From NCBI GenBank assembly GCA_025360015.1, contig JANYCZ010000023.1:114005-178004 (forward strand): a stretch of DNA of 64,000 nucleotides. The letters run 5' to 3'. The notes under the pieces are model-generated. The model was not told the DNA's origin. It saw only the letters and a list, made by a program, of their open reading frames with translations, and did no database searches. Below are positions 57,831 through 61,678 of the stretch, in pieces (the stretch's first letter is position 1; every line of letters starts with the position of its first letter). A program made the translations under genes and the position numbers. Origin of the DNA: Verrucomicrobiota bacterium. Its GTDB lineage: Bacteria; Verrucomicrobiota; Verrucomicrobiia; Verrucomicrobiales; Verrucomicrobiaceae.

Positions 57831-58244
57831 ATGACTTCCATCAGCTTTGGCGAGGCCGTTCGGCGCTCGATTCAAAAAGACCCCCGCTACCATCCCGCCG
57901 CCTACGAACTGGTGCGCGATGCACTGCACATGGCCGCCAAGAAATTCCGGGACGAGAATGCCGAGGATCAGCACGTCAGCGGTCAGGAACTTCTCGCCGG
58001 TTTCCGCGATCACGTGCTGTCCGAATACGGCCCCATGTCCAACATCATTCTCGACCAATGGGGCCTGCAGCGTGGCGAGGACGTGGGCAACATTGTTTAT
58101 AATCTGATCGACTGCGGCTACTTCGGCAAAAACGACGGCGACAGCCTCGAAGACTTTTCCGGCGGCTATGCCTTTGCCAGCGCCTTCACCCATCCTTTCC
58201 TCCCTGCCTCGCTGCGTGAAGCGCACGAGAAAAAATCTTCATGA
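57831..58244 (+). CDS. Minf_1886 family protein
   Basis: 137 residues. The sequence FGEAVRRSIQKDPRYHPAAY, then FVRDAL-type ELVRDALHMAA, and later LDQWGLQRGEDVGNIVYNLI with CGYFGKNDGDS, matches the Minf_1886 family named from Methylacidiphilum, widespread in Verrucomicrobiota and Planctomycetota. Function unknown. The stop overlaps the peptidase start by 4 bp (ATGA), so the two are translationally coupled. Confidence 0.82.
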   Translation: MTSISFGEAVRRSIQKDPRYHPAAYELVRDALHMAAKKFRDENAEDQHVSGQELLAGFRDHVLSEYGPMSNIILDQWGLQRGEDVGNIVYNLIDCGYFGKNDGDSLEDFSGGYAFASAFTHPFLPASLREAHEKKSS

Positions 58245-60808
58245 AAAAAGTTTTGTCCCGTTCCGTGTCCGCCAAATCCACCACTCTCACCGTCCCCACT
58301 CTGGATGCCAGCGTCACCACGCTGCCCAACGGCCTGGAAGTCATCGTACGTGAAGACCATGCCCATCCGCTGGCCAGCGTGCAGGTGTGGATCAAGGCGG
58401 GCAGCATGCATGAGGAGCAGCACACCGGCGCGGGCATCGCGCATTGCGTGGAGCACATGCTTTTCAAAGGCACGGAGAAGCGCGATCCCGCGCAGATCTC
58501 CCAGGGCATCCAGGCCCTCGGCGGTTATGTCAATGCCTACACCTCCTTCAACCGCACCGTGTACTGGATCGACGGCCTCGCGGAGCACGCCGGCGGCTAT
58601 CTCGACATCCTCGCGGACATGATCCGGCATTCGAAGTTCGACGCGGATGAGCTCACGCGTGAAAAGGAAGTCATCCGCCGTGAGATGGCCATGGACAATG
58701 ACGATCCCGGCAGCGCCATCCAGCATCTGATGCAGGCCACCGCCTTCCGCCAGCACCCGCTGCGCCACCCCATCATCGGTCATCGCGAAATCTTCGATCA
58801 GATCTCCCGTGCGGATGTGTACGGCTTCGTGCAGCGCCACTATGTGCCCAACAATGCCTTCATCGTCATCGTTGGGGATGTGGATACCGCCGCCATCCTG
58901 GAAACCGTGCGCAGTCACTTCGGCGACTGGCAGCGCCGTGCGTTTGATCCCGTGATGCTGCCCGCCGAGCCACGTCAGCAGGGCAGCCGCTTTGCCACCA
59001 AAAACTTCACCACCGAGCTCACCCGCATCGCCCTTGGCTGGCAGATTCCTGGAGAGAACCACGAGGACAAACCCGCCCTCGATGTGCTGGCCTTCCTGCT
59101 GGGCTCCGGCCGCAGCTCACGCCTTTATCAGGAACTGCGGGAGAAGCGCAGCCTCGCCCATTACATCTGGGCCGGTGCCTGGTGCGCACCGGAAGTCGGC
59201 CTTTTCAATGTCGAGGCGGAATGCAATCCTGACGATGCTGAAAAGCTGAAGAAGGGCATGCTCGAAGTCCTTGCCGTCATGCAAAAAAGCGGCCCCGGCC
59301 GCGCCGAACTCGAGAAGGCCGTGCGTGCCACACTCAGCGGTCAGATGCGCACGCTCAGCACCGTCAAAGGCCAGGCCAGCAGCCTGGGCAATGGCTGGCT
59401 GCTCTCCGGCTCGCTCGATTATCAGCGCCAGTTCCTCGATGCCATCACCGCGCTCACGCCTGATGTCATCCGCGATGCTGCGCGCCGGTACTTGCAGCCG
59501 GAAAACATTTGCACCGTGATCGTGGGCGATGAGGTCGAGACGCACAACCAAGCCAAGGCCGGCGCGGACTCGGCACGGCCTGAGATTCAGCGCTTCAAAC
59601 TGAAAAACGGACTCATTCTGCTCGTGGGAGAAAATCCACGCCTGCCGCTCATCAGCGTGCGCACCAATTTCCTCGCCGGGGTTCTCGCGGAAACCGACGT
59701 CTCCGCTGGTGTCACGCAGATATCTGCGCAGATGCTGCTCAAAGGCACGAAGAAACGTGCGGCGGCAGATATCGCAGCCGAGTTGGAAAATCGCGGCGGC
59801 AGCCTCATCTGCACCGCTGACGCGCACCGCTACATGATCGGTGCCGATGTCATGCGTGGGGATGAAGCCGACGCGCTCGACCTCGTGGCCGATCTCATCC
59901 TCAATCCCGCGCTGCCGCAGGCGCAACTGGCCGAGGTGAAGAAGCGCCAGGTCGCCAACATCCTCGAAGAAAAGGAAGACCCGCTCACCGTGGCCATGCG
60001 CAAAGCACGGCGTGAAATCTTTGCCGGACAGCCCTTCCACCGCACCGCGCTGGGCACCGAGCAATCCGTGGCCGCGCTGAAACTCATCGACTGCCGCGCC
60101 ATGCTGCATGCCAGCTTCACCACCGGCAACGGCGTCGTCTCCGTCTTTGGCGATGTCAAAGCCGCCGTGGTGAAAGCGCAGGTGGAAAAAGCCTTCGCCA
60201 AACTGCCACGCGGCAATCGCCAGATCGCACTCGGGCGCGAATACCACGCCAGCGCCAAGCCTGCCGCCTGGACCGAGCACCTCGAAAAAGAACAAGCCGT
60301 CCTCGTCGTCGGCTTCCGCACCGTCGGTCTGGAAGACCGTGACGTGCATGCGCTTAATCTCATTGATGAAGCCTGCAGCGACATGGGCAGCCGTTTGTTC
60401 AATCGCATCCGCGAAGAGCTCGGCCTCGCCTACTACGTCGGCGCGCAAAACTTCGCAGCGATGGGCGCGGGCGCTTTCTACTTCTACGTCGGAACCGATC
60501 CCAAAAAAGTGAAGCTCGCTGAGAAGGAGCTCATGGCGCAGATCAATGATCTCGCCACCAACGGCCTGCATGCCGATGAGATTGATCGTGCCCGTGTGAC
60601 TTGGCGTTCTTCATGGCTGCGTGCGCAGCAGGGCAACACCGGCATGGCCGACGTGTGTGCCTGGAATGAAATCAACGGACTGGGCTGGGATCATTTCCAA
60701 AAACTCCCCGGCATCATGGCCGACATCAGCTCCAAGGAGATTCAACGCGTCGCAGCGAAGTACTTCGGGGAGAAGAAAGCTTTCATCGTGCGCGTGCTGC
60801 CGAAGTAG
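58241..60808 (+). CDS. M16-family zinc metallopeptidase, two-domain pair (pitrilysin-like)
   Basis: 855 residues made of two M16 halves. The first carries the inverted zinc motif His68-x2-Glu71-His72 (HCVEHMLFKG) and the third ligand Glu in EVIRREMAMDND. The second half (from about residue 445, LKNGLILLVGENPRLPLISV) has the same fold without the zinc motif. This active-inactive arrangement is that of PqqL/YmxG-type fused peptidases. It has no signal peptide. It degrades small peptides or processes precursors. Coupled to the Minf_1886 gene. Confidence 0.93.
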   Translation: MKKVLSRSVSAKSTTLTVPTLDASVTTLPNGLEVIVREDHAHPLASVQVWIKAGSMHEEQHTGAGIAHCVEHMLFKGTEKRDPAQISQGIQALGGYVNAYTSFNRTVYWIDGLAEHAGGYLDILADMIRHSKFDADELTREKEVIRREMAMDNDDPGSAIQHLMQATAFRQHPLRHPIIGHREIFDQISRADVYGFVQRHYVPNNAFIVIVGDVDTAAILETVRSHFGDWQRRAFDPVMLPAEPRQQGSRFATKNFTTELTRIALGWQIPGENHEDKPALDVLAFLLGSGRSSRLYQELREKRSLAHYIWAGAWCAPEVGLFNVEAECNPDDAEKLKKGMLEVLAVMQKSGPGRAELEKAVRATLSGQMRTLSTVKGQASSLGNGWLLSGSLDYQRQFLDAITALTPDVIRDAARRYLQPENICTVIVGDEVETHNQAKAGADSARPEIQRFKLKNGLILLVGENPRLPLISVRTNFLAGVLAETDVSAGVTQISAQMLLKGTKKRAAADIAAELENRGGSLICTADAHRYMIGADVMRGDEADALDLVADLILNPALPQAQLAEVKKRQVANILEEKEDPLTVAMRKARREIFAGQPFHRTALGTEQSVAALKLIDCRAMLHASFTTGNGVVSVFGDVKAAVVKAQVEKAFAKLPRGNRQIALGREYHASAKPAAWTEHLEKEQAVLVVGFRTVGLEDRDVHALNLIDEACSDMGSRLFNRIREELGLAYYVGAQNFAAMGAGAFYFYVGTDPKKVKLAEKELMAQINDLATNGLHADEIDRARVTWRSSWLRAQQGNTGMADVCAWNEINGLGWDHFQKLPGIMADISSKEIQRVAAKYFGEKKAFIVRVLPK

Positions 60809-60984: not shown

Positions 60985-61164
60985 TTGGCCCGACGGCTGC
61001 TCTATCAAAGACTCAGTTGGGGCGCAAGCTTCACAAATATTTCTCGGGTTCGCCTGAGGAAACACACAACGAGCTGGAGAGTCGCTTCATGGTTGGGACT
61101 CTCTGGTCACCTAAAGGCCCGGAAGGATTTTGGTTGGGTCCTTCCGGGCCGAGTTGTTTTCAGA
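60985..61164 (+). ncRNA. Candidate structured small RNA, copy 1 of a tandem pair
   Basis: Three hairpins in order: CTCGGG-TTCG-CCTGAG (61043-61058, UUCG tetraloop), GAGAGTC/GACTCTC (61077-61103), and GGCCCGGAAGGA/TCCTTCCGGGCC (61116-61150) followed by GAGTTGTTTT, a terminator-like end. The 180-bp unit recurs at 61442. A protein reading frame through it is not supported, because nearly all base differences between copies change the residue. No promoter was clearly identified. No Rfam family is recognised by eye. Confidence 0.65.
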
Positions 61165-61441
61165 CATCGGCATCAACCGGCAAAAGGCAGCAGGAGATTT
61201 CGAGCTCAGGCTCAAGCGCGGATCTCTATTCCAACGGCTTCACCCACAGATGGCGCAGCGTGCGGAGAGGTGCCTTATGTGAAGCACGAAGAGGCCATCC
61301 AATCCTGAGATGGCTTGAAGTGGATTGAGGGATTAAGACCTTTTCAGTCCCAGCAGAACGTCTGCCTTTGAATTCTGTTTGCGAGACTGGCACACACACC
61401 CAACGAGGAGATTGGTTCTGGTCCGTATAAAATGCGCATGA

Positions 61442-61621
61442 TTGGCCCGACGGCTGCTCTATCAATGACTCAGTTGGGGCGCAAGCTTCACAAACATTTC
61501 TCGGGTTCGCCTGAGGAAACACACAACGAGCTGGAGAGTCGCTTCATGGTTGGGACTCTCCGGTCACCTAAAGGCCCGGGAGGATTTTGGTTGGGTTCTC
61601 CCGGGCCGAGTTTGTTTCAAG
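61442..61621 (+). ncRNA. Candidate structured small RNA, copy 2 of a tandem pair
   Basis: The same order of hairpins: 61500-61515, 61534-61560 and 61573-61607. In the third stem an A-U pair of copy 1 is G-C here and a G-C pair is G-U, so all 12 pairs remain. The TTGGCCCGACGG start is shared and marks the left edge of the repeat. The 280 bp between the copies (61165-61441) show no gene or recognised element. Confidence 0.65.
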
Positions 61622-61678
61622 ACAACACCTGCAGGGCAGGGGACAATAGCACGCGAAGATGCATGCTCTTCTTCTTCC

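Follow-up and report, generated by a model that had tools for sequence, protein, structure and literature searches.

What the short tandem repeat at positions 60985 to 61619 of the window encodes, if anything, is the question raised by this locus, the window being the whole 64,000-nucleotide stretch of DNA that was analysed. A sequence-only reading had noticed two near-identical units with a UUCG-capped stem, a middle stem and a 12-bp stem followed by T-rich sequence, and had proposed them to be copies of a small RNA of no known class. The repeat was found as described: two direct units of 178 nt (60985-61162 and 61442-61619), which are 96% identical and start 457 nt apart, each containing all of the stems mentioned (Table 1). 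The T-rich sequence held in part, as TTTTTTT follows the 12-bp stem in some relatives but is weak in the window (GAGTTGTTTTC). A search of the whole host genome (6.6 Mb in 79 contigs) by DNA similarity and by covariance model revealed just these two copies at one place. Folding z-scores of -3.67 and -3.34 were obtained for copies 1 and 2, with 0 and 1 of 200 dinucleotide shuffles, respectively, folding equally well. The opening 17 nt of each unit resemble a promoter rather than RNA, and owing to the sigma-54 (-24/-12) type element within them each unit was taken as a predicted gene, consisting of promoter, an RNA of about 150 nt and a terminator.

Table 1. Features of the repeat locus; coordinates are those of the window. 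Ends of RNA copy 1 are predictions, the 5' end from promoter spacing and the 3' end from the terminator tail.
Feature	Position	Strand	Details
M16-peptidase gene upstream of the RNA pair	58241..60808	+	Pfam; synteny
Predicted sigma-54 promoter element, copy 1	60985..61001	+	TTGGCCCGACGGCTGCT; GG 60987-60988, GC 60999-61000
Structured RNA, copy 1	61012..61165	+	R1 match 61013-61161, 174.6 bits
Hairpin 1, copy 1	61019..61032	+	GNRA-type loop (GCAA)
UUCG-capped hairpin, copy 1	61040..61061	+	missing from short-form relatives
Middle hairpin, copy 1	61072..61108	+	loop CUUCAUGGUUGGG at 61085-61097
Predicted terminator, copy 1	61116..61162	+	stem 61116-61127/61139-61150; loop UUUUGGUUGGG 61128-61138; T-rich tail
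Predicted sigma-54 promoter element, copy 2	61442..61458	+	GG 61444-61445, GC 61456-61457
Structured RNA, copy 2	61469..61622	+	R1 match 61470-61618, 170.4 bits
Middle loop, copy 2	61542-61554	+	
Predicted terminator stem, copy 2	61573-61584/61596-61607	+	
Predicted terminator loop, copy 2	61585-61595	+	

Distribution of the RNA

Using BLASTN, the unit was identified in 33 of 56 genomes with 1 to 3 copies each, namely in 33/35 of the window's genus, which is Prosthecobacter/Brevifollis-like, and in 0/21 of others. From a MAFFT alignment of 43 copies (A1) the covariance model R1 was built, and the search with it, which had been named as a check in the sequence-only reading, detected the RNA in 53 out of 68 genomes from the family, 44/48 within the genus and 9/20 in other genera. 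The four genus genomes lacking a match are G022, G031, G058 and G066, one of them 52% complete and the rest 87 to 95%. An extended alignment of 62 copies (A2, 61 distinct rows) yielded the model R2, which across the order matched 55 of 288 genomes, i.e., the same 53 and two outside the family (G039 and G196). The latter two matches were rejected as plain terminators having no promoter element, GGUUGG being absent from G196 and reduced to UUGGUU in G039, which leaves no credible copy outside the family among the 288 genomes. A pattern scan of named species genomes returned 51 stretches, of which 36 carry the RNA by R1 (43 matches, E < 1e-25) under record titles naming Verrucomicrobiaceae, Prosthecobacter, Brevifollis, other Verrucomicrobia and MAGs labelled Akkermansia muciniphila; the remaining 15, along with two viral stretches, gave no model match at E < 0.01 and were regarded as chance.

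The absence of a known class, as had been judged by eye, was borne out by a scan of the region against Rfam 15, in which nothing reached a gathering score and a threshold relaxed to E 10 brought up a single weak match on the opposite strand (E 2.2, 16.4 bits versus a gathering score of 60). Elsewhere in the window, a TPP riboswitch (RF00059, 23172-23283, minus strand, 71.6 bits) was observed as the sole Rfam match at gathering scores. A described mobile repeat had been considered as well, and phage and plasmid records were found to hold no match to the unit. With two copies at a single place in the host and 1 to 3 per genome elsewhere, the many scattered copies expected of a mobile or REP-like element are not seen, and a mobile repeat was rejected.

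Structure and covariation

The base changes in the long stem on which the sequence-only reading relied, A-U to G-C and G-C to G-U between the copies, are present, as are the accompanying residue changes in the overlapping open frames (GPEGFWLGPSGPS versus GPGGFWLGSPGPS). Two copies prove little on their own, however, and the actual support comes from the 62-copy alignment, whose heavy compensatory change, together with a reading frame that is not kept among homologues, favours RNA over protein as had been argued, so that protein coding was rejected. In A2, standard pairs occupy 97.5% of paired cells as compared to 88.0% after shuffling, changes on both sides occur in 22 of 39 pairs versus 11.3 (0 of 500 shuffles reach 22) and in 218 cells versus 65, and the covariation score of 0.340 exceeds those of shuffled alignments (0.169) and of slid partners (at most 0.101), whereby A2 was fitted to the covariance model and thus favours the model structure. 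The independent alignment A1 displays 13 pairs with both-side changes. Given compensatory change across homologues, it is regarded as nearly certain that the units represent a family of structured RNA genes.

Across the copies the stems vary and the loops are fixed. UGGUUGG is found in the middle loop of 61/62 copies, the exception being the first copy at L038, and in the terminator loop of likewise 61/62, here with L048 as exception; the loop of hairpin 1 is of the GNRA type in most variants, and a terminator-like stem closes the RNA in 62/62 aligned copies. Several further ideas were discarded: a long-range helix joining the 5' and 3' ends, present in one fold, is not kept in relatives, GGA of the CsrA type is not conserved in the loops, and a GCC/GGC helix within the conserved 5' 17 nt was given up because the bases in the middle vary freely. 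Mimicry of the 16S rRNA 3' end, which we take to be GGUUGGAUCACC, was dropped as its GAUC part comes after the stem.

A predicted sigma-54 promoter

In the element TTGGCCCGACGGCTGCT, GG and GC lie ten bases apart and are invariant while the bases between them are free to vary among copies, and the same GG/GC pattern recurs in other genera (TGGTCCGCTTGCTGCT, TGGCAAGCATCCTGCT, TGGCCCGAAGGATGCT). The sigma-54 consensus is given as TGGCAC-N5-7-TTGCT (PMC12316311), which the window element, TGGCCC-N5-CTGCT, fits, its GG and GC being properly spaced. The element was located at 50 of 53 loci by a search that fixed GG and TGCT, making the invariance partly one by construction; allowing one mismatch, it was found at 43 of 45 copies, with one miss due to a contig end and the other probably a chance match. 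Judged by spacing, the predicted transcription start coincides with the foot of hairpin 1 in the window and in most relatives, with L189 as exception, where the modelled RNA begins 63 nt further on. Each tandem copy possesses its own promoter element, even in G021, where hardly any sequence separates the copies (RNA end at 2939, the following element at 2955).

A looser sigma-54 pattern matched the host genome 33 times as compared to 14 for the reversed pattern, and most of these matches are probably due to chance, many of the 30 inspected lying inside genes. The host genome possesses rpoN, as do 43 of 48 genus genomes in all. Separately, a sigma-54-type element was observed some 60 nt upstream of the rpoN start (L076, G000:C26:35809-35824, minus strand), by its sequence a possible sign of autoregulation. 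Within 40 non-redundant upstream regions, a search for an enhancer site yielded only A/T-rich words as over-represented and no shared palindrome. Judged from these sequence features, the RNA is very probably under sigma-54 control.

Gene neighbourhood and a 3' UTR version

Three loci in two other genera have no element near the RNA, L182 and L183 of genus g17 and L188 of g19. At each of them a gene for an outer-membrane-barrel-like protein (253 aa in L182) stands in front, its stop codon followed by the RNA, and it is this gene that carries a sigma-54-type element upstream (TTGGCCCGCATCATGCT, TTGGCCCGTGACCTGCT). The L182 barrel matched Pfam Gcw_chp below the cut-off (E 6e-4), that of L188 had no Pfam match, and NCBIfam gave none for either of the two. 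At the other 50 of 53 loci no barrel gene intervenes, and element and RNA are at most about 90 nt apart. Of 30 loci that encode related proteins, 18 allowed the barrel to be placed, and nine of these bear elements: L201-L203, being the same loci as L182, L183 and L188, and six of ten in the window's genus. These six (L220, L225, L227, L228, L229 and L230) were observed to have TGGCAC-type elements upstream, and on this sequence basis the barrel genes of the genus possibly form a sigma-54 outer-membrane regulon.

The two g19 genomes G077 and G078 have an upstream dehydrogenase gene in common (81% identity over 368 aa), and their RNAs are 94% identical over 78 nt. Only G077 has the barrel gene at this locus, along with a further gene between dehydrogenase and promoter. 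It is plausible that the barrel gene was either inserted between promoter and RNA or lost from there. Neighbours in general differ between clades, which argues for an action in trans: in the long-form clade an M16-peptidase gene precedes the RNA (18/53 loci), in the short-form clade the RNA mostly follows a HAD-hydrolase gene (8 loci), and a xylose-isomerase-like gene lies downstream at 11 loci, mostly of the short-form clade and one in genus g19. This 3' UTR version, the promoter element and the start-codon complementarity described below are additions to what the sequence-only reading had contained.

Loop complementarity at start codons

Read in reverse complement, the middle loop CUUCAUGGUUGGG gives CCCAACCAUGAAG and is hence the exact complement of CCCAACC-AUG-AAG. 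Without mismatch, CCCAACCATGAA occurs at nine sites of the host genome, i.e., in the two RNA genes and at seven start codons, which belong to genes for a sulfatase, a FadL-type outer-membrane protein, an M60-like peptidase, an RCC1-repeat protein, a BNR-repeat protein, a methyltransferase and a small protein with a YHS match below threshold. A further 67 sites are one mismatch away; the backward pattern, serving as control, gave 0 exact matches and 8 versus 76 with one mismatch allowed. When 60 further sites from 11 genomes were read (all non-RNA sites of ten and 3/4 of G074), 63 of 67 sites in the 12 genomes proved to begin an open reading frame that either spans 75 codons or more or runs off the end of the locus. 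Orthologues with a common site exist in the short- and long-form clades, namely L302/L311/L318 with L333, L322 with L272/L345, and L305 with L332.

Leaders rich in C and A were controlled for by expressing CCCAACC as a share of MMMMMCCATGAA sites, with RNA copies removed. This share amounts to 272/3688 in the 48 genus genomes and to 16/626 in 11 family genomes of other genera without an RNA match, an odds ratio of 3.0 with a Fisher p of 1.4e-6 that can serve as a guide only, genomes and orthologues not being independent. In nine genomes of other RNA-bearing genera the share is 20/651, which is no excess (p 0.6 versus 16/626); these genera thus go against a simple targeting rule, although the full complement is missing from the majority of their middle loops, if not from every one of them, some loops having it. 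G031, which is 95% complete and in which no RNA was found, still has CCCAACC at 13 of 89 sites. In a survey of start contexts in 854 kb of the host genome, whose 605 starts are too few, CCAACC was found once versus 0.43 expected and CCCAACC not at all. As an observation in its own right, CCAACC right before AUG is a recurrent start context in the genus (L271-L279, L301-L360), mostly of genes for secreted proteins.

A second CCAACC within 60 nt upstream was identified in 9 of 61 leaders, as compared to a shuffle mean of 1.9 with 0 of 5000 shuffles reaching 9. In the leader of L357 (CCAACCAAAA-N6-CCCAACCATGAA) the order of the two words suits terminator loop and middle loop, whereas some second words may have come from tandem growth, as in L331. 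For the seven leaders of the host genome, the predicted duplexes with the middle loop range from -19.9 to -20.6 kcal/mol. The middle loop is mostly unpaired in the predicted ensemble and UGGUUGG would thus form a conserved, accessible seed; of the terminator loop no more than 5 nt are predicted to be free, and the leaders' own predicted folds engage 1 to 7 of the 12 target bases.

Proposed mode of action and alternatives

Considering these sequence data, the favoured and on balance probable reading is that of a sigma-54-switched RNA of about 150 nt, which would repress selected mRNAs through loop pairing with CCCAACC-AUG at their start codons. Sigma-54 together with an enhancer-binding protein would switch on each unit, upon a signal that may concern nitrogen, carbon or the envelope, and the RNA, made from its own promoter, would end at the terminator-like stem. 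Next, the GGUUGG-bearing middle loop is assumed to pair with CCCAACC-AUG, whereby translation initiation would be blocked independently of Hfq, and the terminator loop may provide a second contact on leaders carrying a second CCAACC. Having its own promoter and terminator, the tandem copy could allow for a higher dose or a separate timing. Hfq was found in none of 47 genus genomes (control rings were found in 5 of 14), and an Hfq-dependent, Qrr-like action is accordingly not indicated. That start-codon pairing is the main action of the RNA is considered slightly better than an even proposition on the sequence evidence. A wider idea can be put forward tentatively: a sigma-54-switched 'anti-start' RNA, operating where no Hfq was found, whose two UGGUUGG loops would jointly silence mRNAs for secreted and envelope proteins by reading their common start-codon word, CCAACC-AUG-AA, and which would exist both as a free-standing duplicated gene and in the 3' UTR of a sigma-54-driven outer-membrane gene.

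The strongest alternative, although an unlikely one, is a sigma-54-driven decoy whose two UGGUUGG loops titrate a protein, the start-codon complementarity being incidental. RNAs of the CsrB and CrcZ type do bind and titrate proteins, and a decoy would account for a motif kept in two different loops at 61/62 copies each, also in genera without an excess of start-codon matches, as well as for a copy number of 1 to 3. It leaves the over-representation of CCCAACCATGAA at start codons of the genus unexplained, however, and we know of no protein that binds UGGUUGG.

Rather improbable is the assumption that CCAACC before AUG is itself a translation signal of the genus and the RNA has another role, so that the match would arise from common sequences or from an RNA acting on ribosomes. 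The 67 host-genome sites one mismatch away and the motif in G031, where the RNA was not found, fit such a signal, whereas the roughly threefold enrichment of the exact word relative to other genera of the family in which no RNA was found, and a middle loop whose 13 nt span the AUG and the second codon, fit the pairing proposed above better.

An action in cis, as leader or attenuator of the downstream gene, would be in line with the xylose-isomerase-like gene that follows on the same strand at 11/53 loci, often within about 120 nt, but was judged very unlikely as every one of the 62 aligned copies closes with a terminator-like stem, each tandem copy has a promoter element, and the downstream gene varies by clade and often, as in the window, lies on the opposite strand. 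Finally, a short coding sequence or a mobile repeat hardly merits consideration, since open frames of 103 and 98 codons do overlap the two copies but any single frame is open in just 27 to 36 of 62, the spacing of the loop motifs leaves a remainder of 2, 0 or 1 on division by 3 in 40, 19 and 3 copies, respectively, and 1 to 3 copies per genome in clade-specific places, with no phage or plasmid record, do not resemble a mobile element.

Significance and comparison with known systems

Few sRNAs have been recorded for the Planctomycetes-Verrucomicrobia-Chlamydiae group, with eight listed in a 2022 Rfam-based tabulation (PMC9029176). Literature searches on sRNA, sigma 54 and RNA-seq or start sites in Verrucomicrobia, and on sRNA in Prosthecobacter, returned nothing on the window RNA, and those on noncoding RNA in Verrucomicrobia returned general discovery papers only, among the matches listed. 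A 2017 survey reportedly describes 224 candidate RNAs, for which the Rfam scan is the comparison made. The RNA family offers a predicted promoter type, a well-supported structure, a natural variation of 1 to 3 copies and a testable target word, and the related genera offer the contrast of promoter-RNA versus promoter-gene-RNA. If start-codon pairing holds true, the start codon itself can guide target choice by an sRNA where no Hfq is detectable, and the 3' UTR version would document a path that links 3' UTRs with free-standing sRNA genes.

Among known systems, the Qrr sRNAs of Vibrio are sigma-54-dependent and use Hfq. They are described as siblings, numbering 1 to 5, whose core is strictly conserved and which a response regulator activates (PMC4211561), features which the window RNA recalls. 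The differences are that Qrr genes are distal to each other whereas the window RNA is tandem, that no Hfq was found in the window's genus, and that no sequence or structure match between the two exists in Rfam. GlmY of the Enterobacteriaceae is likewise an sRNA from a sigma-54 promoter (PMC6075780), and according to PMC4211561 it serves as decoy for the processing machinery. This decoy role sets GlmY apart, and no similarity to the window RNA was found.

RNAIII of Staphylococcus aureus acts independently of Hfq and exposes one short seed in several hairpin loops, that of the terminator included. The repetition of a short seed across hairpin loops up to the terminator hairpin is common to both RNAs, but the C-rich loops of RNAIII bind Shine-Dalgarno sequences, whereas those of the window RNA are rich in G and U and match CCAACC-AUG. 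Finally, sRNAs derived from 3' UTRs, reviewed in PMC9438474, are resembled by the RNA where it follows the barrel stop codon (L182, L183 and L188), and differ from the window form, seen at 50 of 53 loci, which has its element close by and no barrel gene in between.
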